The notes under the pieces were generated by a model. That model saw only the letters and a list, made by a program, of their open reading frames with translations. It searched no databases and had not been told where the DNA came from. A DNA stretch of 35,011 nucleotides from an uncultured Spirochaetales bacterium (GTDB lineage: Bacteria > Spirochaetota > Spirochaetia > Sphaerochaetales > Sphaerochaetaceae): the NCBI GenBank assembly GCA_902796335.1, contig CADBOI010000153.1, forward strand, positions 1 through 35,011, read 5' to 3'. Shown here piece by piece: positions 5,461 to 30,092 of the stretch. A program made the position numbers and the translations under genes. Every line of letters starts with the position of its first letter. The stretch's first letter is position 1.

Positions 5461-5498
5461 GGCTGATGGTTTCTGAATATCATCAGCCTTTTTATTTC
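5461..5498 (+). terminator. Rho-independent terminator after the first operon
   Basis: A perfect 8-bp stem GGCTGATG (5461-5468) / CATCAGCC (5481-5488) with a 12-nt loop, followed by a T-rich tract (TTTTTATTT). It lies 42 bp after the Ldh_2-type stop. Confidence 0.85.
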
Positions 5499-5676: not shown

Positions 5677-5705
5677 TTTACAAGTCCTGCGTGTAATGCT
5701 ATATT
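5677..5705 (+). promoter_or_regulatory. sigma-70-type promoter of the sulfo-TK catabolic operon
   Basis: TTTACA (5677-5682), exactly 17 bp, then TATATT (5700-5705). Transcription would start near 5712, giving a short leader with a GGAGG Shine-Dalgarno (5731-5735) before the ATG at 5740. The same -35 and spacing recur at 13201-13229. Confidence 0.8.
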
Positions 5706-5720
5706 TTCAGTAAGAAAATA
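5702..5720. promoter_or_regulatory. 19-bp palindromic operator, copy 1
   Basis: TATTTTCAGTAAGAAAATA is a perfect 7-bp inverted repeat (TATTTTC/GAAAATA) around AGTAA. It overlaps the -10 box and the transcription start, which is a repressor position. A near-identical copy sits at 13226-13244 on the transporter promoter next to the ROK repressor gene, so the ROK protein is the inferred ligand. Confidence 0.75.
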
Positions 5721-5739
5721 ATTGCAGGACGGAGGTCGT

Positions 5740-7068
5740 ATGCAGTTTGTATATATCCCTATCGGTGTTCCGACATTCGATCTTGAAGTGGCGCAGGACC
5801 AGTTCGACAGATCCTGTGCTTTGATGCGCAGCTGTTTCGGAGGTGAGGCTGTTTGCCCGCAGAAGATGCTGCTGTCGATTCCCGACCTGAAGGCTTTTCT
5901 GGCATCGGTTGATCCGGATCTGATCGTGCTTCAGAACATAACGTTCGCAAACTCGGCATACTGTTCCGAGGTTGTGGCAGCTTTCCCGTCCGTTCCGCTT
6001 CTGCTCTGGACACTGAAAGAGCCTGTGATCGACGGAAAGAGACTAAGACTGAACTCTCTCACCGGAGCGTATTCCGCTGCAAATGTCATGAAGAGCCTTG
6101 GGAAGAGCAGCTTTGGCTATGTGTTCGGATCACCTGACGATTCCGATGTCAGGAGGGCTGTTCTTGCAGATGCCTGTGCCGTCAGGACGCTGAAAGAGCT
6201 CAGGGAGTGCAGGGTGGCAGCCATCGGTACCACACCTGAAGGATTCGGATTCGGTCGTGCTCTGGACAGTGATGTCCTGCGTGTGTTCGGTAGCCGTCTT
6301 ATCTCTGTGGAGCTGAGCGAGATCCTGGACAAGGCGAAGTCATACAGCTTCGATGAGTGCAGACAGTATCTGGAAGGTTTCTGCTCCACATGCTGCGACT
6401 ATGACCATATTCCCGAGAAGAACATGGAAGGCTATGCCCGCCTGATGAAGGCGTATTCGGACTTCTGCGAGCAGAACAATGTGAAGGTCATAGGGTCCAG
6501 ATGCTGGCCTGACCTGTTCACACAGTTCGGGACACCCAACTGCGCCGTGCTCTCAATGCTCAATGACATGGGGATTGCAAGTGCCTGTGAAAGCGACATG
6601 TACGGCGGAATCTCGATGTTCCTGGCATCCAGGCTATCGGGCAAGGCCGTGTTCTTCGGAGATCCGGTCTCGATGGATGAGAAGGAGAACACAGTGACCT
6701 ACTGGCATTGCGGAATGTGCGCACCGTCTCTGGCCTCAAGACCTTCGATCGGTGTGCATCCCAACAGGAAGATCGGGCCTGCCATGGATTTCGGCTGCAA
6801 GGCCTGCGATAGCGTCACCGTATTCAGGATCGGACGAGATGCCGACGGATCTTTCCGTGCTTTCATCGCTCGGGGCAGCGCGCTGGACAAGCCGAAGCAG
6901 TTTTCGGGCGCCTCCGTTGTTGTGAAAACCGAAGGCAGTTCAAAGGAGCTTGTTTATGGATCTGTCAAGGACGGCTGGGAGCCTCACTTTGTGGTTGCCT
7001 ATGCCGATATTGCTTTTGAACTTGAAGAACTCTGCAGAATGCTGGGCATCCCGGTATGTGGGTTCTGA
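5740..7068 (+). CDS. L-fucose/L-arabinose isomerase-family protein, probable sulfoquinovose isomerase
   Basis: A 442-residue cytoplasmic protein of the FucI/AraA-like fold family. The start is the ATG at 5740 behind GGAGG (5731-5735); a TTG at 5722 would overlap the operator. The C-terminal half shows the family's metal/active-site regions: 'CWPDLFTQFGTPNCAVLSML', 'ACESDMYGG' with a candidate metal-binding Glu/Asp pair, and 'WHCGMCAPSL' with a candidate metal His. Members convert aldoses to ketoses. As first gene of an operon with a two-subunit transketolase and linked to a sulfoquinovosidase, the best guess is SQ to 6-deoxy-6-sulfofructose. I recall fucose-isomerase-like SQ isomerases from transaldolase-type SQ pathways, but specificity is inferred. 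The DUF4867 gene is the alternative candidate. Confidence 0.72.
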   Translation: MQFVYIPIGVPTFDLEVAQDQFDRSCALMRSCFGGEAVCPQKMLLSIPDLKAFLASVDPDLIVLQNITFANSAYCSEVVAAFPSVPLLLWTLKEPVIDGKRLRLNSLTGAYSAANVMKSLGKSSFGYVFGSPDDSDVRRAVLADACAVRTLKELRECRVAAIGTTPEGFGFGRALDSDVLRVFGSRLISVELSEILDKAKSYSFDECRQYLEGFCSTCCDYDHIPEKNMEGYARLMKAYSDFCEQNNVKVIGSRCWPDLFTQFGTPNCAVLSMLNDMGIASACESDMYGGISMFLASRLSGKAVFFGDPVSMDEKENTVTYWHCGMCAPSLASRPSIGVHPNRKIGPAMDFGCKACDSVTVFRIGRDADGSFRAFIARGSALDKPKQFSGASVVVKTEGSSKELVYGSVKDGWEPHFVVAYADIAFELEELCRMLGIPVCGF

Positions 7069-7079
7069 GGAGAACTGAT

Positions 7080-7907
7080 ATGAATGAAAACGAACTGAAG
7101 GCCTTTGCCGCAGAGGCTCGAAAGAACTGCCTCTTCTGTATCGGAAGCCTTGGTGTGGGACACGTCGGAGGTGCCCTGTCGATAATCGAGATACTCACTT
7201 ACCTCTACAACGGTGAGATGCGCAACCTTGATCCGAAGAACCCGCGCAGAGAGGACCGCGACATGCTGGTTGTCTCCAAGGGTCACAGCGGCCCGGCTCT
7301 CTATGCCGTGCTCGCCATGCAGGGATTTTTCCCGATGGAATGGCTGGATACCCTCAACAGGGGCGGAACAAGGCTTCCCAGCCACTGTGACCGCAACCAG
7401 ACTCCGGGAATAGACATGAGCACAGGTTCCCTCGGACAGGGTCTTTCAGCCGCCTGCGGAATAGCATACGGTGCAAAGCTCAAGGAAAACGGCCAGAGAT
7501 GCTACTGCATCATCGGAGACGGAGAGACTCAGGAGGGCCAGAACTGGGAAGCTGCGATGTTCGCTGCTGCCAAAGGTCTGGACAACCTTATCACAATCAC
7601 CGACTACAACAAGCTTCAGATAGACGGAACAGTGGAGCAGGTTGTAGGAATCGAGGACATCGAGGCCAAGTGGAAGGCATTCGGCTGGGATGTCTACCGT
7701 GCTGACGGTCATGATTTCAAGGCCTTGGAGAAGGCTTTCGATGCCGCTCACAAGGTTGACGGAAAACCGAAGATGATCATCTGCGACACAATCAAGGGAA
7801 AGGGTTTCCCTCGTCTCGAGGGACAGGTCGGAAGCCACAACGCCAACATCACTCTGGATGAAGTCAAAGAACTCTACAAAGGGGAGGTTCCTGCATGGCT
7901 GAAGTGA
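7080..7907 (+). CDS. sqwG: transketolase, N-terminal (TPP-binding) subunit; probable sulfofructose transketolase part
   Basis: A 275-residue half-transketolase carrying the thiamine diphosphate/Mg domain. It shows GHVGGALSIIEILTYLY near the N-terminus, the SKGHSGPALYA and 'STGSLGQGLSAACGIAYGAK' core, and the GDGETQEG...DYNKLQIDGT ThDP-Mg motif. The start at 7080 has GAGGAGA upstream; a start at 7056 would overlap the previous gene needlessly. It forms a heterotetramer with the next gene product (13-bp overlap). Split transketolases serve normal pentose metabolism too. The link to SqwGH, which cleaves sulfofructose and later sulfoerythrulose with glyceraldehyde-3-P as acceptor, is inferred from the operon. 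The symbol follows the published sulfo-TK scheme as I recall it. Confidence 0.85.
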   Translation: MNENELKAFAAEARKNCLFCIGSLGVGHVGGALSIIEILTYLYNGEMRNLDPKNPRREDRDMLVVSKGHSGPALYAVLAMQGFFPMEWLDTLNRGGTRLPSHCDRNQTPGIDMSTGSLGQGLSAACGIAYGAKLKENGQRCYCIIGDGETQEGQNWEAAMFAAAKGLDNLITITDYNKLQIDGTVEQVVGIEDIEAKWKAFGWDVYRADGHDFKALEKAFDAAHKVDGKPKMIICDTIKGKGFPRLEGQVGSHNANITLDEVKELYKGEVPAWLK

Positions 7908-8848
7908 AGGATATGGATATCGAGATGAGGCAGGCCTACTGCCGCACACTGATGGAGCTTGCTGCGGAGGATCCCCGCGTTGTGGTTCTTGAGGCTGACC
8001 TGATGAAGGCCTCCGGAACAATGCCGTTCAAGGATGCATTCGGAAAGCGAGCGATCGATGTCGGAGTAGCAGAGGCTGACATGGTCGGAATCGCAAGCGG
8101 TCTTTCCGTTCAGGGGTTCATCCCGTTCGCAGCCACATTCGGATGCTTTGCGGCCCGCAGGACGTTCGATCAGTTCTTCATCAGCAGCAACTACGCCAAG
8201 CTGAACGTGAAGCTTACAGGAACAGACCCGGGTGTCTCTGCCGTCTACAACGGCGGAACTCACATGCCGTTCGAGGATATAGGACTGATGCGCATGATAC
8301 CGGATCTCGTGATCCTGGAGCCGAGCGACGCCGCATCTGTCTGCGGTCTTGTCCGTGAGATGTACAAGCATCAGGGATGCTGCTATCTCAGGCTGCACCG
8401 CAAGAAGTCTCCCGCCATCTACGGTCCGGACGAGAAGTTCGAAATCGGAAAGGCAAAGCTTCTGAAGGATGGCAATGACGTTACGCTGATCGGTCTCGGC
8501 GCCGTGATGATGCAGGAGGTCCTCAAGGCCGCCGGACTTCTTGAAAAAGAGGGAATAAACGCCACAGTGATCGATGCTCTTTCGGTGAAGCCTCTGGACA
8601 GGGATCTGATCCTCGCCAAGGCCCGCGAGACCGGGGTTGTGGTCACATGTGAGAATCATCAGGTAGACGGAGGTCTTGGAATGGCCGTGACCAAGCTGCT
8701 TGCGGATGAGAACGTCTTCTGCAGGATGGGCTACATCGGTGTTCAGGACCGTTTCGGACAGGTGGGAAACCTGGATTATCTGGTCAAGGCATACAACCTT
8801 TCGGCCGATGACATCTGCGCCAAGGCAAAGTCGCTTCTGAAGAAATGA
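7895..8848 (+). CDS. sqwH: transketolase, C-terminal subunit; probable sulfofructose transketolase part
   Basis: A 317-residue Pyr-plus-C-terminal half of transketolase. VVVLEADL and 'IDVGVAEADMVGIASGLSVQ' hold the conserved Glu that activates thiamine diphosphate. FAATFGCFAARR is the pyrimidine-domain signature. 'TCENHQVDGGLGMAVTKLL' is the typical C-terminal-domain site. The ATG follows GGGGAGG (7881-7887) and overlaps the 3' end of the N-terminal subunit gene by 13 bp, so the subunits are translationally coupled. Together they would move a two-carbon ketol unit from sulfofructose and then sulfoerythrulose to glyceraldehyde-3-P, making xylulose-5-P twice. No xylulose-5-P-specific gene is near, so carbon probably enters the housekeeping pentose phosphate route. 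Confidence 0.85.
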   Translation: MAEVKDMDIEMRQAYCRTLMELAAEDPRVVVLEADLMKASGTMPFKDAFGKRAIDVGVAEADMVGIASGLSVQGFIPFAATFGCFAARRTFDQFFISSNYAKLNVKLTGTDPGVSAVYNGGTHMPFEDIGLMRMIPDLVILEPSDAASVCGLVREMYKHQGCCYLRLHRKKSPAIYGPDEKFEIGKAKLLKDGNDVTLIGLGAVMMQEVLKAAGLLEKEGINATVIDALSVKPLDRDLILAKARETGVVVTCENHQVDGGLGMAVTKLLADENVFCRMGYIGVQDRFGQVGNLDYLVKAYNLSADDICAKAKSLLKK

Positions 8849-8873
8849 AAAGGGAACAACAAGGAGAAATACT

Positions 8874-9347
8874 ATGAAAATCGCCATCGCATCCGATCTC
8901 AGCGGATATCCAATGAAGAAAGCAATCGTCGAGCATCTGAAGGAGAGGAGTGACATCGAGGTCCTGGACTTCGGCATCCCCAACGAGAACGAGCCGCATC
9001 CGTACGTCGAGCAGGCTCCCAAGGTATGCAAGGCCATCCAGAACGGAGAGGCGGAGAAGGGAATCCTGATCTGCGGAACAGGTCAGGGTATGGCAATTGT
9101 CGCCAACAAGCACAAGGGCATCTATGCCTGTGTGGTCGATTCAATCTTCTCCGGCGAGAGAGCCAAGATCATCAACAACGCCAACGTCATCACACTGGGC
9201 GGCTGGGTCACGGCACCGTTTCTTGGCTGCGAGATCGTGGATGCATGGCTTGCCATGAAGTTCACACAGAAGATGGAGTTCAAGAAGGACTTCCTGACCA
9301 AGAACTTCCACATTGTCGAGGACATTGAGAAGGAGAACTTCAAATGA
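8874..9347 (+). CDS. sqwI: RpiB/LacAB-family isomerase, probable 4-deoxy-4-sulfoerythrose isomerase
   Basis: A 157-residue RpiB-fold aldose-ketose isomerase. The catalytic base Cys67 sits in ILICGTGQG, and the NNANV motif is present. Two residues of true ribose-5-P isomerase B are missing: the His of SDHAG is Leu9 (SDLSG), and the ring-opening His before NNxNV (His99 of E. coli RpiB) is Ile100. A substrate that is already open-chain and not phosphorylated would explain both. 4-Deoxy-4-sulfoerythrose cannot close a furanose ring because it lacks a 4-hydroxyl. It sits 25 bp after the transketolase genes, with AAGGAG upstream. It should turn sulfoerythrose into sulfoerythrulose for the second transketolase round. 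Family certain, substrate inferred. Confidence 0.82.
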   Translation: MKIAIASDLSGYPMKKAIVEHLKERSDIEVLDFGIPNENEPHPYVEQAPKVCKAIQNGEAEKGILICGTGQGMAIVANKHKGIYACVVDSIFSGERAKIINNANVITLGGWVTAPFLGCEIVDAWLAMKFTQKMEFKKDFLTKNFHIVEDIEKENFK

Positions 9348-10522
9348 TCAGTTCCCCGCTCAGTCCGCTTAAGGTCATTGAGTGCAAGCACATCACAAAA
9401 GCCGTTCTCAGACGTATTTCCGGTACGGATGGAAAGATAGCAATTGTCACTGACAATGCCCCGATTGAGTCAAAAGCAAGGTTAATTGCATCATTCTCCA
9501 AGGATGAGGCTATTGTATTTGACAACGTCCAGCCAAATCCGCGTACAAGTGACATCATGCAGATGTTCGGTGACAAGGCATTCTCCACATGCTCCGTCAT
9601 AGTGGGAATCGGCGGTGGAAGCGTTCTTGACAGCGCCAAGGCACTTGCCATGCTCAGGACCAACGGAGGTGCTCTGGACGATTATCTGGGTAACTCTCCA
9701 AAGCGGAAGATAGAGAAGCGCTGCGCACCTCTGATCCTTCTTCCCACAACCGCGGGAACAGGAAGCGAGGTGACAAAGGTCGGTGTGTACACATCTGAAA
9801 ACGGACGCAAGTACACACTGGGATCTCCTCTGATGCACGCTCACAAGGCTGTCCTTGTCCAGGACTTCGTCGTCAAGGCTCCGCCGGCACTGGTGGCTTC
9901 GACAGGTCTTGATGCTCTGGACCATGCCTTTGAGTCCATCTGGAACAGGAACTCTGAGCCGGAGACCCTTGAGCTTTCGGTCAAAGCCGCAATAGAAGTC
10001 CTTTCAAATATCCGCACCATGTACGACTCAAGTGTTGCAATCATAGGTGGAAAGCCTGTGGACGAGGCAGCATATAGGGCTGCAAAACGCATGCTCCATG
10101 CTTCCTGCGTAGCCGGAATGGCATTCAACCTTACGGGAACCGCAGCAGGCCACGCATTGAGCTTTGTCCTGAGCGAGACATGGCATGTGCCCCACGGTAC
10201 CGCCTGCGCGTTCACCCTTAACGGTGTGTTCGCTCTGGCATGTCAGAATGACTGCACAAAGGAGTATCTTGCCAAGGTATCGAAGCATTTCCATCCGCAG
10301 CTGAGGACTGTGGACAAGCTTGTCAGCGCCCTTCAGAAGGACGTGGCCGAGCTTACCGTATACCTGAGACAGCCGCAGAAGTTCTCAGACCTTGGCATCG
10401 AGCTTACTCCGGACAAGATCGACTGCAACTTCGAGCGTTCGTTCGACGATCCGAAGATGTGGAACCAGCTTCCGGTTGCCACAAAGGAGAACATCTATCC
10501 GCTTCTGGAGGAGCTCTGCTGA
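9344..10522 (+). CDS. sqwF: iron-containing alcohol dehydrogenase, probable sulfoacetaldehyde reductase
   Basis: A 392-residue group III (iron-type) alcohol dehydrogenase. GIGGGSVLDSAKA (about residues 88-100) binds the NAD(P) pyrophosphate, and PTTAGTGSEV is the family signature. Metal ligands lie in LDALDHAFE and in 'AAGHALSFVLSETWHVPHGT'. The ATG overlaps the RpiB-like stop (ATGA) and has AAGGAG 9 bp upstream. Iron-type ADHs reduce sulfoacetaldehyde to isethionate in taurine-fermenting gut bacteria (SarD of Bilophila, TauF of Bifidobacterium), so the same reaction is the best assignment for the end of the SQ route. It would also regenerate NAD+ for glycolysis. Other aldehydes or ketoses cannot be excluded by sequence alone. 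Confidence 0.82.
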   Translation: MISSPLSPLKVIECKHITKAVLRRISGTDGKIAIVTDNAPIESKARLIASFSKDEAIVFDNVQPNPRTSDIMQMFGDKAFSTCSVIVGIGGGSVLDSAKALAMLRTNGGALDDYLGNSPKRKIEKRCAPLILLPTTAGTGSEVTKVGVYTSENGRKYTLGSPLMHAHKAVLVQDFVVKAPPALVASTGLDALDHAFESIWNRNSEPETLELSVKAAIEVLSNIRTMYDSSVAIIGGKPVDEAAYRAAKRMLHASCVAGMAFNLTGTAAGHALSFVLSETWHVPHGTACAFTLNGVFALACQNDCTKEYLAKVSKHFHPQLRTVDKLVSALQKDVAELTVYLRQPQKFSDLGIELTPDKIDCNFERSFDDPKMWNQLPVATKENIYPLLEELC

Positions 10523-11214
10523 TGGACAGGCTGTCGCTTCTCAGACAGAAAAATCCGGGTCTTGTGATCCACACGGTTGACGAGAAGATATTCTCCCGTT
10601 ACGCCCGTGTGGTCAACTCCCCGGTTTTTGAAGACATAGCCGCATACATAGACCGCACCACCACCGTTCCCGAGCGCAACACTTATGTCGCCGACATCCC
10701 TGAACTGCACACAAAGGAGAACGACGAGGCTCTTTGTGCTTTTTACGGTGGTCTTGTTCCTCAGATAGGTTACTGCAACGGCCCCAACTTCTCAATGAAC
10801 GGATGCGAGTACCACAAGGGTCCGGAGCTGACCATTGCCATCACAGACTGTCTGATGTGGTGGGTTCTTCCCGAGGATTTGGTTGATTTTGACCATGTTG
10901 ATTCCTCAAAGGCCGAAGTCTTCTACATTCCCAAGGGATGTGCGTTTCTCCTTAAGCCGGAGATTCTGCACCTTGCACCCTGTAAAGTGGATAAAAACGG
11001 ATACAAGACAGTGATCATCCTTCCGATGGGCACCAACAGCCCGATCGATCCTGACCTGAAGGCCTCAATCAAGGCCAACGGAGATCCGGAATCCGGGATA
11101 CTACACATGTCCAACAAGTACATAATCACCCACAAGGACTGGCAGCCTCTTGTGAGCCAGGGAGTCCATATAGGGCTTCTGGGCGAGAACCGCAGGGTGA
11201 ATCCCATATCCTGA
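10522..11214 (+). CDS. DUF4867 family protein, cupin-like, function unknown
   Basis: A 230-residue protein. The start is the ATG at 10522, sharing a base with the ADH stop (TGATG), with GGAGGAG upstream. The upstream extension to 10459 lies inside the ADH gene and is rejected. The sequence matches what I remember of DUF4867: QIGYCNGPNFSMNGCEYHKG, an AITDCLMWW strand, 'AEVFYIPKGCAFLL', LHLAPCKV and VIILPMGTNSP. The Glu-Tyr-His triple and the LHLAPC His suggest a cupin metal site. DUF4867 genes often accompany sugar-isomerase operons. Here it could be an SQ mutarotase, an isomerase or an accessory protein; I cannot choose. It is the only member of the operon with no assigned step. Confidence 0.75.
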   Translation: MDRLSLLRQKNPGLVIHTVDEKIFSRYARVVNSPVFEDIAAYIDRTTTVPERNTYVADIPELHTKENDEALCAFYGGLVPQIGYCNGPNFSMNGCEYHKGPELTIAITDCLMWWVLPEDLVDFDHVDSSKAEVFYIPKGCAFLLKPEILHLAPCKVDKNGYKTVIILPMGTNSPIDPDLKASIKANGDPESGILHMSNKYIITHKDWQPLVSQGVHIGLLGENRRVNPIS

Positions 11215-11215
11215 T

Positions 11216-11962
11216 ATGTCAGCGGCAGTTCTTTCCGGCATAGTCGTATTCTTCTCGTTCACGCTTGAGGTCATAACGGGCTTCGGGGGAGCCGTGACTG
11301 CGGTTTCGTTCGTCACAGCGCTTCTTGGAATGCATACGGGGGTTGTGATCCTGACCATGATCGCCATAATCCCGCAGCTTTCCGTAATCATAAGGAACTG
11401 GAGGAAGATAGACTGGAAGAACTACCTGATTATTGTCGGTCTGATGTTCCCTTTCCTGTTCGTGGGAAGGGCCCTTCAGTCCATGGTGGATACGGCAATT
11501 CTCAAGAAGATACTTGCGTGCTTCATAATCGCGGTATCAGTGTTCAGGCTTGTGCAGTTCTACATCCTTTCCCGCCGCAGGGGTTCGGCAGAGGAAGGGG
11601 AGAAGGCCGATGTGAAGTGGTACTCCTACCTTGCTCTGGTCGGAGCCGGAGTGATTCACGGAATGTTTTCCTCAGGCGGACCTCTTGCAATCATCTATTC
11701 CTCGTCCGCAATAAAGGACAGGGACAGCTTCCGCTCGACAATGTGCATGCTGTGGGTGACGCTCAACTCGATTCTGACAGTTTCCTATGCTCTTGACGGC
11801 TCGATAACCACAGAGATGTTGCGAATTGCCCTGGTCATGATTCCGTTTGTTATTGGAGGAATCATTGCCGGAAATCTGATTGTAAGAAGAGTCAACAATA
11901 AGGGTTTCTCAGTAGTCGTTTATGCCTGTTTGTTGGTAACAGGCATATTCCTATTGGTTTAA
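11216..11962 (+). CDS. TauE/SafE family exporter, probable isethionate/sulfonate exporter
   Basis: A 248-residue membrane protein with about 7-8 hydrophobic helices. The N-terminal repeat contains FTLEVITGFGGAVTAVSF, and the second repeat contains 'GVIHGMFSSGGPLAIIY', matching the two GxGGG/SSGGP-type repeats of the TauE/SafE (DUF81) family. These proteins export C2/C3 sulfonates and are standard partners of sulfoglycolysis, because the sulfonate end product must leave the cell. It begins 1 bp after the DUF4867 stop with no strong Shine-Dalgarno, so it probably depends on coupling. Its stop overlaps the convergent ROK gene stop (shared TTAA at 11959-11962). Confidence 0.82.
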   Translation: MSAAVLSGIVVFFSFTLEVITGFGGAVTAVSFVTALLGMHTGVVILTMIAIIPQLSVIIRNWRKIDWKNYLIIVGLMFPFLFVGRALQSMVDTAILKKILACFIIAVSVFRLVQFYILSRRRGSAEEGEKADVKWYSYLALVGAGVIHGMFSSGGPLAIIYSSSAIKDRDSFRSTMCMLWVTLNSILTVSYALDGSITTEMLRIALVMIPFVIGGIIAGNLIVRRVNNKGFSVVVYACLLVTGIFLLV

Positions 11963-13152
11963 GATTCAAAAAAGGCGTCTATGACAAGGTCGGATGCTCC
12001 AGCCTGAGCAACCACATTGTCATATGCCATTGCAAACACGCTGGGTATCCTGTTTTGGAAATAGTCCCTGGCGCCTTTGTAAAGAATCCTGATTTTTTCG
12101 GCAAGGGTCTCGGCCACGAAGATAGACGGACAGATTATGAGGAACGAATCCGGAGACAGCGATCTCTGGATGGTCTTCATTCCCGAGTACATATAGAAAG
12201 CCGCCTTTTCAAGGATTGCATCGGCCTTGGGTTCCTTGATGTCCGTAATCGAGGAGAACAGGACTGAATCCTGGGTTTTTCCGCCAATCTGGGCATTCAG
12301 TTCCAGCATATAGGCCTGAAGACAACCCTTGAGTCCGCAGCTGCAGAGCGGTCCGTCGAAGCTTACGGGAATGTGTCCGGCCTCAAGGGAGGTTCCGTCG
12401 GCGGCTGTGTAGATGCCGTTCTCGGAGACCATGGCTCCGTTTACTCCTCCTCTGACTAGGAAGGCGAACATTGCCTTTCCCGGATCCTTGTCGCCGTATC
12501 TGTATACCGAGGAGGCCAAGGCGCTGCAGTTGTTGTGGACAAGAACACGGTAGCCCAGACTCTTCTCCACGGCTTCCTTGAGGGGATAGTTCTCCATTCC
12601 CTTAATTCTGGAATAATAGACGACGGAACCGGTGGCCACGTTGACCTTTCCGGGAGCGGCGATTCCGATTCCTGCAATCTTTTCGTCGGGAATCCCAAGT
12701 TCGGAAACGGCCATGCGCGTCAGGCTGCAGATCAATTCCTCAACCTTGGCGGCATCTACGCTGTCGTCCAGCATCTCCATGTGGGAGTAGATGCGCTGGC
12801 GGTTGAAGTTGAAGACTCCGAGCGAGAGGCATGAGGACCAGAACTCTATTCCTATTGAATAGACAGCGTCAGGACAGACGGTATAGTAGACAGGGTGGCG
12901 GCCCTTGCGGGATTCGGGTATGGTCCTGGAGGACTGGCAGGGTGTGATGTAGCCGTTCTGCTCAAGATAGGAGAAAACCCTGAAGACCGACGGAGCTTTA
13001 AGACCTATGTTTGTGACAATGTCCGACTGTGACGCCCCGCCATGGTTTCTTGATGCATAGATTGCCGATAGAACGGCCATGATGTTCCTGTGTCTGATAT
13101 CCGTTGCCCTTACCGGATCGATGCCTGTCTGAATGCTGTCGTTGGTAATCAT
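11959..13152 (-). CDS. ROK family transcriptional repressor of the sulfo-TK regulon
   Basis: A 397-residue NagC/XylR-type ROK regulator. An N-terminal winged HTH covers about 20-75 ('GGASQSDIVTNIGLKAPSVF'). The ROK domain follows, with the EAGHI His and the zinc cluster CSCGLKGC. The phosphate-loop motif of ROK kinases (DxGxT) is degenerate (IGIEFWSS), so it should not be a sugar kinase. It is divergent from the binding-protein gene, and the 130-bp gap carries operator copy 2. Copy 1 is on the operon it converges with. The likely inducer is SQ or a pathway intermediate. It has no Shine-Dalgarno; a TAGAAT box ends 7 bp before its ATG. Confidence 0.9.
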   Translation of the reverse strand: MITNDSIQTGIDPVRATDIRHRNIMAVLSAIYASRNHGGASQSDIVTNIGLKAPSVFRVFSYLEQNGYITPCQSSRTIPESRKGRHPVYYTVCPDAVYSIGIEFWSSCLSLGVFNFNRQRIYSHMEMLDDSVDAAKVEELICSLTRMAVSELGIPDEKIAGIGIAAPGKVNVATGSVVYYSRIKGMENYPLKEAVEKSLGYRVLVHNNCSALASSVYRYGDKDPGKAMFAFLVRGGVNGAMVSENGIYTAADGTSLEAGHIPVSFDGPLCSCGLKGCLQAYMLELNAQIGGKTQDSVLFSSITDIKEPKADAILEKAAFYMYSGMKTIQRSLSPDSFLIICPSIFVAETLAEKIRILYKGARDYFQNRIPSVFAMAYDNVVAQAGASDLVIDAFFES

Positions 13153-13159
13153 AGTTTAG

Positions 13160-13188
13160 ATTCTAATATCAAAACACGCTGTTCGGAA
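13160..13188 (-). promoter_or_regulatory. probable leaderless promoter of the ROK gene
   Basis: On the minus strand, TTCCGA (13188-13183), 17 bp, TAGAAT (13165-13160), then 7 bp to the ATG. The -35 match is poor; the -10 is good. An 11-bp palindrome, TTAGATTCTAA (13156-13166), covers the -10 and may be an autoregulatory site. Confidence 0.4.
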
Positions 13189-13200
13189 AGCGTTTTTTTC

Positions 13201-13229
13201 TTTACAAAAGTAAATTGCCATGTGATACT
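13201..13229 (+). promoter_or_regulatory. promoter of the SQ ABC transporter/sulfoquinovosidase operon
   Basis: TTTACA (13201-13206), 17 bp, GATACT (13224-13229). The -35 box and spacing are identical to the catabolic operon promoter at 5677. The start is expected near 13236, about 46 bp before the ATG, with AAAGGAGAG as Shine-Dalgarno. Confidence 0.75.
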
Positions 13230-13244
13230 TTCAGTAAGAAAATA
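13226..13244. promoter_or_regulatory. 19-bp palindromic operator, copy 2
   Basis: TACTTTCAGTAAGAAAATA differs from copy 1 (5702-5720) at one base, so 6 of 7 arm pairs are kept. The identical stretch runs 3 further bases (ATTG) on its right flank. It sits on the -10 box between the ROK gene and its divergent target operon. Confidence 0.75.
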
Positions 13245-13282
13245 ATTGTTTTTCTTCATCGATAAAAAAAGGAGAGAAAAAG

Positions 13283-14533
13283 ATGAAAAAACTCACAATC
13301 GCATTTCTGATGCTCGCTCTTGTGCTTTCATTCACGTTTGCACAGGGCTCTTCAGAGAGTTCAAACAAAGAAGTTGAGCTTAAGTTCGTCACATGGTGGA
13401 CAGGAACCGATACAAAGGGTCCGTATGTCGAGCAGATCGTCAAGGACTTCAACGAGGCTCATGCCGGAAAGATCCATGTCACCCTCGAGGGAACAAACGA
13501 TGCCGACGGCATCTTCACTCAGATCATGACACAGCTCGGTGCCGGAAACCCGCCGGACATCTTCTCCGTCAAGCCGCAGGCAGAGTTCTACGGATACTAT
13601 GACAGCAACCTCCTGATGGACTTCGCAGCCGATCTCAAGGGAGAGTGGGGCGGACAGTTCGCAGAGGGCATTGTCGCTTCAACAACAATCAACGGCGAGA
13701 CAAAGTCACTTCCTTACGAGATGGCCTATGTCCCAATCTGGTACAACATGGACATCCTCAACGCCGTAGGAATCACAAAAGCTCCCGAGACAATGGATGA
13801 GTTCTGGGCAATGTGCGAGAAGGTCACCAAGGCCGGATACTACGCAACAGCTCAGATGACCGGTGGAACTAACGCATGGTTCTCAATGCTCTGGTACACA
13901 TCCATCTGCGGATCTATCGGCGGTGCAGGTGCATTCGACAACATCAAGAACGACTGGGCTACCAATCCTGTCTACGTCCAGGCAGCCGAGATCCTCTGCA
14001 AGATGGTCAGAGAGTACACGACTCCGGATGTCATCGGAGCCACAGCTCCTGTCGCAAACAGCCACTTCAAGGGCGGAGAGACAGCAGCTTACCTCAACGG
14101 ACCGTGGTGGATTGCAAACCTTGACGATGCACGCCAGGCAACAACAGAGTTCGCATTCTTCCCGACAATCAACTACAAAGACGTCCTGATCGGTTCAGTC
14201 CAGTCCAACCTTGCCGCAGCAAACACAAAGGATCCCGCAAAGAGAGCCGCTGTCATCGAGTTCCTTAAGTACTTCACAACAGCTCAGAACGCACAGCTTG
14301 TCTCCAACGCTGGTTCTGTCCTCGCAGTCAAGTACGAGCCTCTGGCAAATTCCTCCAAGCTCGCAAAGGACCTCCAGGCAAGAATCAATGAGGCTTCCGG
14401 CTTCATCGCCTACTGGGAGAACTGCATCGGAACAAGCGATGTCGTAGCGGAGTTCGGTCAGGCTCTCGCAGCCATGATCCAGGGCGCTCTCACACCGCAG
14501 CAGTTCGTCGCACAGATCGCAAATGTGATGTGA
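13283..14533 (+). CDS. sugar ABC transporter substrate-binding protein, probable sulfoquinovoside binder
   Basis: A 416-residue extracytoplasmic solute-binding protein of the UgpB/MalE type (COG1653). A Sec signal peptide covers about residues 1-21 (KK, hydrophobic core, FTFAQG). No Cys follows, so it is not a typical lipoprotein, as in many spirochaete sugar binders. The mature part has the family pattern 'LPYEMAYVPIWYNMDIL' and 'GPWWIANLDDA'. It follows a regulated promoter and an AAAGGAG Shine-Dalgarno, and precedes two permeases. The substrate should be a sulfoquinovoside such as sulfoquinovosyl glycerol, because the operon ends in a sulfoquinovosidase. That specificity is inferred; binding residues cannot be mapped by eye. 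Confidence 0.88.
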   Translation: MKKLTIAFLMLALVLSFTFAQGSSESSNKEVELKFVTWWTGTDTKGPYVEQIVKDFNEAHAGKIHVTLEGTNDADGIFTQIMTQLGAGNPPDIFSVKPQAEFYGYYDSNLLMDFAADLKGEWGGQFAEGIVASTTINGETKSLPYEMAYVPIWYNMDILNAVGITKAPETMDEFWAMCEKVTKAGYYATAQMTGGTNAWFSMLWYTSICGSIGGAGAFDNIKNDWATNPVYVQAAEILCKMVREYTTPDVIGATAPVANSHFKGGETAAYLNGPWWIANLDDARQATTEFAFFPTINYKDVLIGSVQSNLAAANTKDPAKRAAVIEFLKYFTTAQNAQLVSNAGSVLAVKYEPLANSSKLAKDLQARINEASGFIAYWENCIGTSDVVAEFGQALAAMIQGALTPQQFVAQIANVM

Positions 14534-14546
14534 TTTCAAATCTTCG

Positions 14547-14582
14547 CAAGACAGGGGCCCTCGGTGGTCCCTGTCTTGTTTT
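14547..14582 (+). terminator. intra-operon hairpin (partial terminator/mRNA stabiliser)
   Basis: A perfect 10-bp stem CAAGACAGGG (14547-14556) / CCCTGTCTTG (14569-14578), extendable by 2-3 pairs to a 6-nt loop, followed by TTTT. It sits between the binding-protein and permease genes. That is the usual place for a hairpin that makes the binding protein more abundant than the membrane subunits. Confidence 0.8.
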
Positions 14583-14594
14583 CAAGGAATGTCT

Positions 14595-15476
14595 ATGAGC
14601 AGGAATCTAGCTGAAAGGAAATTCAACAGGAACTGGAAGGGCATACTGCTTTTCCTTCTTCCGGCCTTTGTTCTTTACGGACTGTTTTTCATTTACCCCA
14701 TATTCACCGTCATATTCACAAGTCTGACGGACTGGTCCAACTTCAGGACCATGCACTTCGCGGGTTTCAAGAACTATTCAAACCTCTTCAAGAATCCTAC
14801 ATTCCTGAAAGCAATAAGGAACAACTTCATATGGGCGTTCGTACTGGCCTTTGTTCAGGTTCCCATTGCAATGACCATGGCCCTTGTACTTGCCCGCAAG
14901 CCGAAGGGCTGGAAACTGTTCAGAACAGTCTACTTCCTTCCCACCGTCATCTCGGGATCCGCCCTTGCAATGATGTGGAAGGCTGTCTACAACCCGACGA
15001 ACGGCGTCCTCAACGCCATTCTGGGTATCTTCAGTGCCAACAACGGCACCAACTGGCTGGGTGACATGAATACGGCACTGGTAGCCGTCATTGTCCAGCA
15101 GGTCTTCTATTTCGGATATTTCATGGTGATCATCTTCGCATCCAGACTCGGCATAGACGACACCATGTATGAAGCTGCCATGATAGACGGAGCCAACGTC
15201 TGGCAGCAGGAGATACATGTCACGCTTCCTATGCTCAAGCCCGTTCTGATCACGGCCATAACCTTGGCCATGGCGTACGGATTCAGGCATTTCGAATCCA
15301 CATACCTCCTCACAGGAGGCGGACCCAACCACGTGACAGAGACCATGGGAACGTTCCTCTACACAAAGCTGTCCTCGGCCAAGTGGGCTGAAGGCAACTC
15401 GATAGGAACTACGATCATCCTCCTCGGAGGAATCATGATAAGTGTGATCCGCTCAGTCCTGAGCAGGGAAAAGTAA
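14595..15476 (+). CDS. ABC transporter permease, MalF/UgpA type
   Basis: A 293-residue inner-membrane permease with six hydrophobic segments (first at about 18-40). The EAA loop that contacts the ATPase is in 'YEAAMIDGANVWQQEIHVTL'. The start is the second ATG (14595), because AAGGA lies 6 bp before it; the ATG at 14589 directly abuts that Shine-Dalgarno. It pairs with the next permease and with the binding protein. No ATP-binding subunit is encoded in this window, so a shared MsmK/UgpC-type ATPase elsewhere must energise the complex. Confidence 0.92.
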   Translation: MSRNLAERKFNRNWKGILLFLLPAFVLYGLFFIYPIFTVIFTSLTDWSNFRTMHFAGFKNYSNLFKNPTFLKAIRNNFIWAFVLAFVQVPIAMTMALVLARKPKGWKLFRTVYFLPTVISGSALAMMWKAVYNPTNGVLNAILGIFSANNGTNWLGDMNTALVAVIVQQVFYFGYFMVIIFASRLGIDDTMYEAAMIDGANVWQQEIHVTLPMLKPVLITAITLAMAYGFRHFESTYLLTGGGPNHVTETMGTFLYTKLSSAKWAEGNSIGTTIILLGGIMISVIRSVLSREK

Positions 15477-15488
15477 GGAGGCATCGGA

Positions 15489-16340
15489 ATGAATACAACA
15501 AAAAAACTCGGACCGGTCGATATCCTTGCGAAGTTCTTCAAGTGGTTCTTCCTGATTTTCTTCCTGCTGTTCATGATCCTTCCGCTTGTCTGGATCCTTA
15601 TCTCGTCGTTCAAGACCAATCTTGAATTCAACATCAAGAGCCCGTTCGCACTGCCTGAGGTCTGGCAGTTCTCGAACTACAGGAATGCGTTCTCGATCAG
15701 CAATCTGCCGAGGATGTTCCTGCATTCGATCATAGTGGCCATTGTCACTACTGCACTGAACCTTGTTGTTGCGGCCATGTCCGCATTCGCTCTGTCCAGG
15801 GAGAAGTTCAGAGGGAACAACCTGATCCTCACATTCCTGCTTTCGGGAGTCCTGATTCCCATCATCGCACTGATGGTCCCGATCATGAAGATCAACAACT
15901 TCCTGCATCTGTATGACACCCTCGGTGCCCTGATCCTGACATATACCGCTATAAATCTGCCCACTTCCATCTTCCTGGTGCATGGTTTCATGTCCACGAT
16001 TCCCAAGGAGCTGGAGGAGAGTGCCACAATAGACGGATGTTCGTTCCTTCAGCGTTTCACAAAGATCATCTTCCCGCTGACCAAGCCCGGTCTTGTCACA
16101 GCCGGAACACTGGTGTTCATCTACTGCTGGAACGAGTTCACATATGCCATGATCCTGACGATCTCGGAGAAGGCAAGGACAATCCAGCTGGGAATCAAGT
16201 ACTTCCAGACGGAGTTCAGCATAGACTATACCGGTATGCTGGCAGCTATTGTAATCACCATGCTTCCGACTATAATCGTGTATACTTTTATGCATGACAA
16301 GATCATCAGCGGCATGACAGCCGGAGCCGTCAAGGGCTGA
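15489..16340 (+). CDS. ABC transporter permease, MalG/UgpE type
   Basis: A 283-residue inner-membrane permease with about six transmembrane segments (first at about 19-41). The EAA-type loop is 'LEESATIDGCSFLQRFTKII'. A perfect AAGGAGG (15475-15481) precedes the ATG. The gene starts 12 bp after permease 1 and its stop overlaps the ATG of the sulfoquinovosidase (TGATG). It forms the translocation pore with the previous gene product. Confidence 0.93.
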   Translation: MNTTKKLGPVDILAKFFKWFFLIFFLLFMILPLVWILISSFKTNLEFNIKSPFALPEVWQFSNYRNAFSISNLPRMFLHSIIVAIVTTALNLVVAAMSAFALSREKFRGNNLILTFLLSGVLIPIIALMVPIMKINNFLHLYDTLGALILTYTAINLPTSIFLVHGFMSTIPKELEESATIDGCSFLQRFTKIIFPLTKPGLVTAGTLVFIYCWNEFTYAMILTISEKARTIQLGIKYFQTEFSIDYTGMLAAIVITMLPTIIVYTFMHDKIISGMTAGAVKG

Positions 16341-18313
16341 TGAAAGAAGGGGACATGATCAGCAAGTCTGTTTGCGGAAGGACGTTCGTGCTTCCGGAGA
16401 TTCTGGTAGGAAACGGTGAAAGCTCCGTCAGCATGTACAGGGGCAATTTCAAGGTACGCGAGAAAAAGGTCAGCTGGATTCCGCTGAATGTGTCGGAGAC
16501 TCCCGACGGGGCTGTCTATAGCTCTGAGGGGACAGAGATAAGGCTTTCTTCATCGGTCGAGGGATGCTTTCTTACACTCAAGCTCTCTCTGGTCTCAGGT
16601 TCATGGAACAGGTTTTTGATACGTTTTGCCGCAGAACATCACGAGGCCGTCTTCGGAGGCGGAGAGCAGTACTCCTATTTCAACCTCAGAGGACACAGGT
16701 TCCCGATTATGACAAGGGAGCAGGGTGTCGGAAGGCGTTACAACAGGCCGCTAACATTCCTTGCAGAGCTTCATGACAAGGCCGGCGGGGCATACCATAC
16801 GACCTATTATCCTCAGCCTACGTTCGTCTCGAGCCTCAACTACTTCATCCATGTACACAGCTTCAACTACAGCGTTCTGGATTTCTCATCCAACAGGTTC
16901 CATGACGTGTTCTCTTACAGCCTGCCTGAAAAGATCACAGTGGGTTTCGGTTCTTCCCTTATGGACACCGCATCCAAGGTCAGCCTGCTACTCGGGCGTC
17001 AGGATGTGCTTCCCTCATGGGTCCATGACGGAATTATCCTGGGAGTGCAGGGCGGTACGGAGACGGTTCGTGCCAAGCTGGAGGAATCGCTGTCCCACAA
17101 TGTGCGCGTCTGCGGCCTGTGGGCCCAGGACTGGTCGGGGAAGATCGTCACATCGTTCGGAAAGCGAGTTCTTTGGGACTGGAAGTGGAATCCGGAGATG
17201 TATCCGGGCCTTGATGAATGGATTGAAGAACTCAAGAAAAGTAACATTGCCTTTACAATCTACATAAATCCATATCTCATAAAGGGAAAGAGCCTTTGTA
17301 ACGAGGCTGTGGAGAAGGGCTATCTTGTTAAGAACTCCTCGGGTGAGGACTACTTCATCGATTTCGGCGAGTTCGACTGCGGCCATGTGGACCTGACCAA
17401 TCCGAATGCCTACATCTGGTACAAGGAGAAGATCAAGGCCAACATGATCTATTTCGGTTCGGCCGGATGGATGGCGGATTTCGGTGAATATCTTCCCACC
17501 GACGCTGTGGTTCACAGCGGCATAAGCGGAACCGAGGCCCACAACCTCTGGCCCGGACTCTGGGCAAAGCTCAACCATGAGGCTCTTGAAGAGACGGGAA
17601 ATCTGGACAAGATCATCTTCTTCATGAGAAGCGGCAACGCCATGAGCCCGCGATATGCGCAGAGCATCTGGGCCGGTGACCAGAACGTTGACTGGTCACG
17701 TGACGACGGAATCAGATCCGTCATTCCGGCTGCCCTTTCCCTTGCCTACAGCGGACACGGAATCAGCTTCAGCGACATAGGCGGTTACACAACGGTCGCA
17801 TGGCTGAAACGCACAAAGGAACTTCTTCTGCGATGGACTGAGATGAGCTGCTTCACGCCGATTATGCGCACACACGAGGGCAACAGGCCACAGACGAACT
17901 GGCAGTTCGACTCCGATGGCGATACTTTGGACTACATGGCATACTGGGCTGACCTGCACTACAGGCTCAAGGATTACATTGTCTTCTGTGAGAAGGAAAA
18001 CAGGGACAAGGGTCTTTCCTTGATGAGGCCGATGAACTGGTACAGCAGCGAGTCCTGGGCTCTGAACTGCGTGAACCAGTACATGCTGGGTCCTGAACTT
18101 CTGGTGGCTCCTGTGATGAAGAAGGGTGCCAAAGGCAGACATGTGTGCCTTCCCGAGGGCAGATGGGTACATCTCTTCACCGGAAAGACATATGGAGCAG
18201 GGCAGTACTTCATTCCATCAAAGATTGAGGACAGAAGCATCCCCGTGTTCTACAGAGCAGATGGGGAGTGGGCCTCATTCTTCAAAGGATGTATTTCCCC
18301 GAAAAAGAAATAA
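16340..18313 (+). CDS. yihQ: sulfoquinovosidase (GH31, YihQ type)
   Basis: A 657-residue cytoplasmic GH31 retaining alpha-glycosidase (no signal peptide). It hydrolyses sulfoquinovosyl glycerides to sulfoquinovose. Compared with E. coli YihQ from memory, the nucleophile Asp380 (WMADFGEYLP), the acid/base Asp447 (WAGDQNVDW) and all sulfonate-binding residues are present: Gln263, Arg276 and Trp279 in the QDWSG...TSFGKRVLW block, and Tyr483 in DIGGY. They match YihQ Gln288, Arg301, Trp304, Asp405, Asp472 and Tyr508 with identical spacings. The N-terminal domain also has GGGEQYSYFNLRG and EQGVGR. The start at 16340 is coupled to the permease stop; an ATG at 16355 is an alternative. The last 32 bp overlap the convergent GH31 gene. 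Confidence 0.96.
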   Translation: MKEGDMISKSVCGRTFVLPEILVGNGESSVSMYRGNFKVREKKVSWIPLNVSETPDGAVYSSEGTEIRLSSSVEGCFLTLKLSLVSGSWNRFLIRFAAEHHEAVFGGGEQYSYFNLRGHRFPIMTREQGVGRRYNRPLTFLAELHDKAGGAYHTTYYPQPTFVSSLNYFIHVHSFNYSVLDFSSNRFHDVFSYSLPEKITVGFGSSLMDTASKVSLLLGRQDVLPSWVHDGIILGVQGGTETVRAKLEESLSHNVRVCGLWAQDWSGKIVTSFGKRVLWDWKWNPEMYPGLDEWIEELKKSNIAFTIYINPYLIKGKSLCNEAVEKGYLVKNSSGEDYFIDFGEFDCGHVDLTNPNAYIWYKEKIKANMIYFGSAGWMADFGEYLPTDAVVHSGISGTEAHNLWPGLWAKLNHEALEETGNLDKIIFFMRSGNAMSPRYAQSIWAGDQNVDWSRDDGIRSVIPAALSLAYSGHGISFSDIGGYTTVAWLKRTKELLLRWTEMSCFTPIMRTHEGNRPQTNWQFDSDGDTLDYMAYWADLHYRLKDYIVFCEKENRDKGLSLMRPMNWYSSESWALNCVNQYMLGPELLVAPVMKKGAKGRHVCLPEGRWVHLFTGKTYGAGQYFIPSKIEDRSIPVFYRADGEWASFFKGCISPKKK

Positions 18314-20648
18314 CCTTTCCGTCGAGTTTTCCGGCCTCTACTGTTTCCGTACCGGAAAATCCTTCAGGGAATGCGATTGTGACCTTCCTGTTTTTCAAGG
18401 TGCTACTGTTGCCGCAGTGTATGAGGTTGATGCGGGTACTTCCTGTACAGGTTCTGACGTCATAGCTGACGGTAATTCGCCAGATGTTGTGGCTGTTGTC
18501 TGTTATTGCGGACTCTCCGTCATCCTCGAAATACTCGTAAGTGAATTCCTCTTTCCCATCTCCTGTTCCGGGAAGGACGAGCATGGTCAGGTCTCTGAAG
18601 TAGCCTGTTGTAAGCTTCTCGGGTTCCGCAAGGGGAATGACACTTGCCGTTCTGTAGAAATACCAGGTTGAATCCAAAGGTGTCGGGAATGTCCTTTGTT
18701 CTCCCCCGGGAATCAGGGTTCCGGTCTTGGGGCTGTACCAGTTGTCACCGTCGGGGAACCTCACCGATATCTCGGTCTGGTCCGGGTTCAGTACCGGAGC
18801 CTTGAGCACGCTTCTGCCGAACATGAAGGTCTGTTCATCTGATCCGAGGTTTCTGTCCTCGGGGTATTCCAGAAGGAGCATCCTTTCAAGTGGCTCTCCG
18901 GTACGGGAGCTGTGATATGCCTCGTTGTAGATGTAGGGCATGTGGCGGTAGTGGTCTGTCAGGGCAGACTTGATTGCATAGAATACCTCTGTGAACTTCC
19001 AGGGTTCGGTGGGCCTGTCGTCCTCCCTCCAGGAATGGATGACAAAACGGCTCTAGAAGATAGCGCTCTGACAGCATCTGACAAGAAGCTGCGGGCTTGG
19101 TTCGGGGCCGTAGAAACCACCAAGGTCGTGGCCTACGAACGGCAGGCCGCTCAGTCCCATTCCGATTCCCTGATACTGGTTGTACTTCAGGGTCTTGAAG
19201 TTGCTGCTGTTGTCTCCTGTCCAGGTCCTGGCGTATTTCTGGATTCCGGCATAGCCGCTTCTTGAGTAGATCCAAGGTCTTTTGCCCGGGTTCTTCTCGA
19301 TGCAGGCTTCATAGGACGAGCGGGCCATGAGGCAGGGGAGGACAGTGCGGATTCTCCAGATGTCAAGATCCGGGTCTGAGAACTCGAATTCGTTGTTGTC
19401 GTTCCAGATGCCTTCGGCTCCTGCATCAAGGTAAGCGCTTTTTAGTTTCGATTTCCACCAGGAGCAGGCTTCGCTGTTCGTGAAGTCTATGAAGGATGCA
19501 TCCCCTCCCCAGAAATACTCCACAACTGGACGGCCGGAGTTGTCTTTGATGAGGTAGCCCTTTTCTGCAAGTTCTTCGTATTCCGGATGCGTTTTCAGGA
19601 TTCCGGGTTTGATGTTGAATGTGAGATGATAGCCTCTTTTGCGCAGGTCTGTGATGAATTTCGCAGGATCCGGGAACTTTCGGCTATTCCAGACAAATGC
19701 ATGGCGAAGGCCTTCGTCTGATTTCAGATACCCTGAGGAGACATACATTCCCTCGCAGGGAATCTTGTGCTTCTCGACATCCTCGAAGAACTTCATGATT
19801 CGTGCCTGGGCGTCGTATGCCTCCACATAGTTCATGGATGAGCCCAGGTAGCCGAAGGAAAACAGAGGCGGAAGTGCGGGAAGACCTGTCAGTCCGCAGT
19901 ACTGAGCAAGTACATCCCTGTAGTTTTCTCCGGTGAAGAGGTAGAAGCTGAAAGGACCGTCGCAGATGTCAGCAGACCAGTAGAAAGGGCTTTCCTTTCC
20001 GAGGTCGAACGAGTCTATGCATGGGGAGGCAAAGAAGTAGCCTGTGCAGATTCGGTTTGAGCGGTTGAACCTCAGAAGGAATGGAATCGACTTGTAGAGG
20101 GGGTCGGAGAAGGAAGCGTCATAGCCAAGGGCATCCTTGTTGTACATCCGGAACCTCTTCCCCCTGCGGTCCGGTTTTCCCGCCTTGTCGCCCAGTCCGA
20201 AGAACATGTCATTGTCATCAAGTGCAAAGTAGAAACTTCCTGTCATGTGGTCTCTGCCGCCGACCAGTCTGAACTGGGACTGGGGAATGACAGTGTCTTT
20301 ACCGCCGGCCATGCCTCCGTGGACAAGTATTCCGTCTCTGAATACGGATACGGAGGAATGGTCCTTGGCTATCCTGACCTCCATGCGGCCGGATTTGATT
20401 GCCCAGCCATCCGGTGTTTCTATGAGTGCGGATTCCGACGGGGTGGGGCTGTTGTCTCGTTTTGTATTGCAGATCTGATCGATGGCTTCGGTTGCGTTTC
20501 GGGGAACGGTGTGGGTTTTGATGCTGTATTCGAAAGAAATGGAGTCTGCGCCGACAAAGCAGATTCCAAGGCGTCCGGTTTCAGTTTCAAAAAGATAACC
20601 GTCTTCTGTCCGAGATGCTTTTATGATTCCTCCGAGCTCGATCTTCAC
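18282..20648 (-). pseudogene. second GH31 glycoside hydrolase, interrupted by one in-frame TAG
   Basis: An approximately 788-codon GH31 frame split by a single TAG at 19055-19053. The upstream part (20648-19053) holds the N-terminal beta domain and the barrel, with nucleophile GIWNDNNE (Asp about 417) and acid/base WTGDNSS (Asp about 479). It ends '...LLVRCCQSAIF'. The same frame resumes directly with SRFVIHSWREDDRPTEPWKF and runs 256 residues to 18282, containing the end of the barrel and the C-terminal beta domains. The stop replaces one residue of the common 'QxxIFxPRF.IHSW' motif. I chose the GTG at 20648 (AGAGG 5 bp upstream) over a TTG at 20675. It lacks the YihQ sulfonate residues, so it is an alpha-glucosidase/xylosidase-like enzyme. 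No signal peptide is seen. It could be a pseudogene, a sequencing error or readthrough. Confidence 0.88.
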
Positions 20649-20689
20649 AGTTTCCTCTACCTCTTTTACTAACAAGTATGAAGAATATG

Positions 20690-29995: not shown

Positions 29996-30092
29996 AGGTT
30001 AAGACATGTTAAAATCAGGAATAAACAAACCTTTGCGGCGTAGTTTTATTTTCGGCTCCTGTATTTTGCAGGACAAAACGGTAGGGGAGACC

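Follow-up and report, generated by a model that had tools for sequence, protein, structure and literature searches.

A probable transketolase-type sulfoquinovose pathway of the isethionate branch encoded by a Sphaerochaetaceae-type spirochaete

Sulfoquinovose (SQ), an organosulfur compound, is very abundant, and the isethionate formed from it feeds sulfide-producing gut bacteria. The question raised by a 35,011-nucleotide stretch of DNA from an uncultured Spirochaetales bacterium (contig CADBOI010000153.1 of assembly GCA_902796335.1; hereafter the window) is whether twelve neighboring genes encode a complete transketolase-type SQ degradation (sulfo-TK) pathway of the isethionate branch. From the gene content, we consider it very probable that they do, in a spirochaete of the Sphaerochaetaceae type. 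This function, proposed in a first-pass annotation of the window, is well supported by homologues of SqvD, SqwGH, SqwI, SqwF, SqvB, TauE, and YihQ, by diagnostic residues, by conservation of the set, and by the predicted co-regulation through ROK; because the same genes co-occur in many genomes, the set is not a chance grouping.

The twelve-gene set occupies 5677–18313, from the TTTACA at 5677 to the stop codon of the glycoside hydrolase family GH31 gene at 18313. A rightward seven-gene operon (SqvD, SqwG, SqwH, SqwI, SqwF, SqvB, and TauE) is met by a convergent ROK gene, and a second operon encodes the substrate-binding protein (SBP) and two permeases of an ATP-binding cassette (ABC) importer, followed by the GH31 gene. 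Gene families were assigned by Pfam search and the two permeases by tblastn conservation with sister loci. Every gene that the first-pass annotation had listed is present in the order, on the strands, and at the coordinates given there, Pfam agrees for each gene tested, and its label of a spirochaete-like genome is correct. The host assembly is a draft of 1.63 Mb in 211 contigs. The features are as follows.

5461–5488, plus strand: intrinsic terminator (10-bp stem and T run) between the upstream Ldh_2 gene and the sulfo-TK operon
5677–5705, plus strand: promoter of the sulfo-TK operon, sigma-70-like, TTTACA-17-TATATT with an extended -10
5705–5724, plus strand: predicted ROK operator copy 1, TTTCAGTAAGAAAATAATTG, same as copy 2; motif at sister loci
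5740–7068, plus strand: SqvD/SftI-type SQ isomerase (Pfam Fucose_iso_C; NCBIfam NF048012)
7080–7907, plus strand: SqwG, N-terminal, thiamine diphosphate-binding half of the split sulfofructose transketolase (Pfam Transketolase_N, E 3.8e-51)
7895–8848, plus strand: SqwH, C-terminal half of the split sulfofructose transketolase, in its own open reading frame (Pfam Transket_pyr and Transketolase_C)
8874–9347, plus strand: SqwI, sulfoerythrose isomerase of RpiB fold (Pfam LacAB_rpiB; tree; residues)
9344–10522, plus strand: SqwF, iron-type sulfoacetaldehyde reductase (Pfam Fe-ADH; tree)
10522–11214, plus strand: SqvB/SftX, cupin, proposed SQ anomer or ring-opening enzyme (Pfam DUF4867, E 4.7e-52)
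11216–11962, plus strand: SqwE-like TauE/SafE sulfonate exporter (Pfam TauE, E 9e-24; 41–72% conserved at sister loci)
11959–13152, minus strand: ROK-family repressor (Pfam ROK; weak, sub-threshold MarR-like N-terminus)
13201–13229, plus strand: promoter of the importer/YihQ operon, TTTACA-17-GATACT
13229–13248, plus strand: predicted ROK operator copy 2, same 20-mer as copy 1; motif at sister loci
13283–14533, plus strand: SBP of the ABC importer, CUT1 type (Pfam SBP_bac_8/1; signal-peptide-like N-terminus)
14589–15476, plus strand: importer permease 1 (74% to locus L035; 49–53% to other family loci)
15489–16340, plus strand: importer permease 2 (79% to L035; 51–57% to other family loci)
16340–18313, plus strand: YihQ, GH31 sulfoquinovosidase (NF007746, 784 bits; PDB 5aed, E 5e-200)

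Translation of SqvD most likely starts at ATG 5740, which follows GGAGG, instead of TTG 5722; the likely start of SqwG is ATG 7080, and the start codon of SqvB is ATG 10522. Rfam and tRNA searches gave no matches.

What route would these proteins make up? The CUT1-type importer, served by an ATPase whose gene lies elsewhere in the genome, would take up sulfoquinovosyl glycerol or SQ, and YihQ would liberate SQ in the cytoplasm. SqvB may assist ring opening or anomerization of SQ, which SqvD would convert to sulfofructose. SqwGH would transfer C1–C2 of sulfofructose to glyceraldehyde-3-phosphate, giving xylulose-5-phosphate and sulfoerythrose; SqwI would isomerize sulfoerythrose to sulfoerythrulose, from which SqwGH would remove a second C2 unit to leave sulfoacetaldehyde. 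Finally, SqwF would reduce sulfoacetaldehyde to isethionate, to be exported by the TauE-type protein.

The glycosidase at the head of this route scores 784 bits against the YihQ model NF007746, for which the curated cut-off is 553. Of the residues of E. coli YihQ (numbering of that enzyme), we take R301, W304, and Y508 to bind the sulfonate and D405 and D472 to be catalytic. The E. coli protein (PDB 5aed) is a full-length homologue of the window GH31, and a phmmer alignment of the two shows that all five residues are kept. Because the window protein has no visible signal peptide, it is probably cytoplasmic, and the glycoside would be cleaved inside the cell. In E. coli itself, YihQ is paired with an Embden-Meyerhof-Parnas-type (sulfo-EMP) pathway, not with sulfo-TK. 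The isomerase SqvD matches the SQ-isomerase model NF048012 over its full length (E 2.5e-105). SqvB, from the DUF4867 family that is a typical member of SQ clusters, matches the solved DUF4867 cupin PDB 9gyy (E 3.4e-46), and in the alignment to 9gyy it keeps the four metal ligands Glu-x-His-x3-Glu and a distal His described for this cupin (PMC11968277).

For the transketolase, residues at the phosphate-recognition site are informative: in the sulfofructose transketolase of Faecalicatena, RAFDR replaces RSFHR (PMC11659671). Aligned to the split transketolase of C. hydrogenoformans (6yaj), the window SqwH reads R12-A39-F-D111-R169, i.e., RAFDR, with Ala39 in place of Ser and Asp111 in place of His. 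Among the SqwH homologues examined, Asp is present in every SQ-cluster SqwH and ordinary split transketolases mostly have His; this survey used the His/Asp column, and the Ser/Ala site rests on the 6yaj alignment. Asp-type transketolases form one clade (100/100) that contains all SQ-cluster SqwH.

The residues of SqwI were compared with those of RpiB, in which we take a His to open the sugar ring and a Cys to be catalytic. In the window SqwI, the catalytic Cys67 is retained and the ring-opening His is replaced by Ile99; more broadly, the SqwI proteins of spirochaetes and Firmicutes retain the Cys, carry Ile or Val for the His, and read SDLSG or SDKSG, rarely SDGSG, where RpiB has the SDHGG motif. 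Loss of the His would fit the chemistry, since sulfoerythrose lacks a free C4 hydroxyl and could not close a ring, so that SqwI would need no ring-opening residue. SqwI falls in one clade with Firmicutes SqwI, separate from RpiB (SH-like approximate likelihood ratio test [SH-aLRT] 98), and SqwF clusters with the sulfo-TK SqwF reductases of Firmicutes (SH-aLRT 93). In the SqwH and SqwI trees and residue tables, some automatic labels were wrong and the corrected identities are used here: L243–L272 are Firmicutes genomes, and L174, L176, and L262 are ordinary RpiB near ordinary transketolases. The first-pass annotation had singled out grouping with non-sulfonate enzymes as the outcome that would speak against the pathway. 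SqwI and SqwF group instead with Firmicutes sulfo-TK, and SqwH is separated from non-sulfonate enzymes only in part, as it shares its clade with spirochaete paralogues outside SQ clusters.

Several points weigh against the reading of a complete SQ pathway. The genome assembly is 74% complete, and all functions are predicted from the genes. SqvD, at 353 bits, falls short of the NF048012 equivalog cut-off of 700; the isomerases of Faecalicatena contorta and other SQ clusters likewise score below it. PDB searches with the SBP gave no close match among solved SQ-binding proteins. The Asp-type transketolase clade also includes spirochaete paralogues from outside SQ clusters, and these paralogues interleave with the cluster-borne SqwH, which are not monophyletic; forced monophyly was rejected (approximately unbiased [AU] test, p 9e-56). 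Thus, no clade exclusive to sulfo-TK enzymes was recovered for SqwGH, such exclusivity not being a published pathway criterion, and the Asp signature, which marks a transketolase family, may not mark SQ use alone because that clade takes in paralogues outside SQ clusters. Could the same chemistry then serve at this locus to degrade another 6-sulfo or anionic sugar, e.g., sulfofucose or a sugar acid, in place of SQ? Membership of SqvD in the broad fucose/arabinose isomerase superfamily, its score below the SQ-isomerase cut-off, and the Asp-type transketolases found outside SQ clusters would allow this. Against it, YihQ is unambiguous, with all SQ-recognition residues present, SqvB is typical of SQ clusters, and the homologous sets of Firmicutes include demonstrated SQ degraders (PMC11659671, PMC13219744). 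We regard a substrate other than SQ as extremely improbable and retain SQ.

A second Asp-type split transketolase is encoded in the same genome (G000 contig 5, L279:386–2199 onwards), with a LacI-type regulator, an ABC importer, a xylose-isomerase-like protein, and a histidine phosphatase as neighbors, and related Asp-type copies occur outside SQ clusters in other family members. That Asp-type split transketolases have spread beyond SQ in the Sphaerochaetaceae, where paralogues may act on some other sugar, sulfonated or otherwise anionic, and split it through a transketolase route not yet described, is a tentative idea that we think rather unlikely to hold.

The importer genes lack an ATPase of their own; three ABC ATPases with a MalK-type domain are encoded elsewhere in the assembly. 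SmoF was absent both from the best 60 PDB matches of the SBP in a single-protein search and from a profile search at E 1e-20, and the SBP does not have the close homology to SmoF expected of a SmoF-type SQ-glycerol-binding protein. The importer belongs to the CUT1 class, and that it carries an SQ-type ligand is our guess from gene position alone.

Would the pathway end at isethionate? No pyruvate formate-lyase (PFL)-like glycyl radical enzyme was found in the assembly, a result limited by the approximately one-quarter of the genome that is missing, and because of this, isethionate is probably the end product and would be excreted. The end product might instead be sulfoacetate, via an SqwD/SqwKL branch, or a transaldolase-bifurcated pathway might also yield C3 sulfonates. 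Each of these variants has been described: the sulfoacetate one reportedly exists in Spirochaetes (PMC12890257), and the bifurcated one is reported in Faecalicatena and Caproiciproducens. The locus, in contrast, encodes SqwF and a TauE exporter, and no acylating dehydrogenase, acyl-CoA ligase, or transaldolase is present at it, the search for transaldolase being confined to the locus. These alternatives appear very unlikely to us, and isethionate is kept as the expected product.

We further analyzed how the two operons might be controlled. An identical 20-mer lies just 3' of both -10 boxes (5705–5724 and 13229–13248); the number of copies expected in shuffled sequence is zero, no shuffle yields a match, and no other site with two or fewer mismatches was found in the rest of the 1.63-Mb assembly. 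A promoter scan by itself is at background (8 matches against 8.6 expected), so that a single match is not significant, and both TTTACA sites become credible because the identical 20-mer sits at each. A degenerate form of the 20-mer occurs where the operons of sister loci begin: the DNA upstream of regulated genes, 2.4% of the total, holds 29 of 38 matches (0.9 expected); the consensus was derived from those same sites, and the independent evidence is placement only. The motif is present at most sister loci, and two loci of the same genus carry a diverged operator form, TTTCAGAGTGAAAATAA, at the SqvD start. The ROK protein is 42–65% conserved in most spirochaete SQ loci. Because the motif travels with the ROK gene, we predict that the 20-mer is the ROK operator, through which the ROK protein probably co-regulates both operons, repressing them until an inducer is present. 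The other possibility is that the ROK protein is not the regulator of the locus and that the common 20-mer is a mere promoter element or a recent duplication, which would suit its abutment on the -10 box, the predicted nature of ROK binding, and the background level of the promoter scan. Neither a promoter element nor a duplication fits well with a 20-mer confined to these two sites in the assembly, with a diverged motif at the corresponding operon starts of sister genomes, or with its occurrence together with the ROK gene. We consider this possibility unlikely and favor ROK control of both operons.

How widespread is the set? Among 101 family genomes, the host's own included, SqwI orthologues (at least 69% identity, next matches at most 43%) are present in 23 and SqwF orthologues in 21. 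All twelve genes are co-located at 11 other family loci (L035, L036, L207–L209, and L213–L218). The gene order of L035, which is apparently the same contig as L041 of the rumen metagenome-assembled genome (MAG) RUG11866, is identical to that of the window. Four loci of the same genus (L222, L223, L224, and L226) have the enzymes and YihQ without an adjoining ABC importer. A family subgroup (L207, L208, L213, and similar loci) has a diverged isomerase, 24–27% identical to the window SqvD, which matches the SQ isomerase model at approximately 1e-59 within otherwise complete sulfo-TK clusters. At Firmicutes SQ loci, identity to the window proteins is 54–59% for SqvD, 51–57% for SqwG, 42–53% for SqwH, 39–49% for SqwI, and 32–38% for SqwF.

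The first-pass annotation had supposed novelty for a spirochaete system that combines an ABC importer with ROK control, and this does not hold. A 2026 review, citing Liu et al. 2021, places sulfo-TK in Clostridia, Spirochaetes, and Thermotogae (PMC12890257). According to a 2026 ISME J paper (PMC13219744), the pathway occurs in 11.8% of 246 Sphaerochaetaceae genomes; the Sphaerochaetaceae MAG SQrumen3, 'Neosphaerochaeta fermentans', carries sulfo-TK and YihQ genes that were transcribed during isethionate production in SQ-fed cow rumen fluid; and a figure legend covering four species lists SqwE, DUF4867 (SftX), and SmoFGH importer genes. Like the window, SQrumen3 has isethionate-branch sulfo-TK enzymes and YihQ, in the same phylum and, by inference, the same family; it differs in that its genome also has SqgA, its genus is probably distinct, and the text consulted makes no mention of ROK regulation or an operator for it. 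Strain MSTE9 (Liu et al. 2021; PMC9594981, PMC12890257, PMC11659671) shares SqvD, split SqwGH, SqwI, SqwF, and SqvB, with the same predicted chemistry and product, its enzymes being those of Firmicutes. The bifurcated sulfo-TK/transaldolase (TAL) system of Faecalicatena sp. DSM22707 has SqwGH with RAFDR, SqwI, SqwF, and an ABC importer in common with the window, and differs by added transaldolases and by a candidate NAD-dependent sulfoquinovosidase that replaces YihQ (PMC11659671). An ABC importer and ROK gene beside sulfo-TK genes are also found in Firmicutes: four Oscillospiraceae/Ruminococcaceae (Bacillota) loci (L103, L110, L111, and L115) share ROK, the sulfo-TK core of SqwF, SqwI, SqwH, SqwG, and SqvD, YihQ, and the ABC importer, in a gene order that differs from the window and with a ROK identity of 23–29%.

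Spirochaete sulfo-TK is thus already published, and the locus is a further member, adding a ruminant-associated spirochaete genus to the likely isethionate producers and leaving the picture of the pathway unchanged. The present analysis contributes support for SqwH and SqwI at the level of single residues, the prediction of a ROK operator, and the finding that in this family Asp-type transketolases also exist outside SQ clusters; useful handles for annotation are the signature Asp of SqwH, the missing ring-opening His of SqwI, and the predicted operator.

Outside the set, the upstream Ldh_2 gene (4381–5418) was considered as a possible sulfolactate dehydrogenase within the pathway and rejected: its best NCBIfam model is L-sulfolactate dehydrogenase, yet its 245 bits fall far short of the cut-off of 500; the terminator parts it from the operon; and just one Ldh_2 protein was seen close to a sister cluster, with 31% identity. 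Downstream, a second GH31 gene (18282–20675, minus strand), closest to MalA and alpha-xylosidase models and not to YihQ, carries one in-frame TAG at 19053–19055 and is either a pseudogene or an assembly error. Beside it lies a GPH-family sugar:cation symporter (20725–22209); homologues of the second GH31 adjoin the same symporter in the sister genomes L222 and L223. The symporter might serve as an alternative SQ importer in those sister genomes where the ABC genes are missing, a suggestion weakened because it is paired with a GH31 closer to MalA/alpha-xylosidase than to YihQ. Farther along, the protein encoded at 30006–31343 has a glycine-rich beta-helix repeat region with a weak Listeria-Bacteroides repeat match and is possibly surface-exposed.

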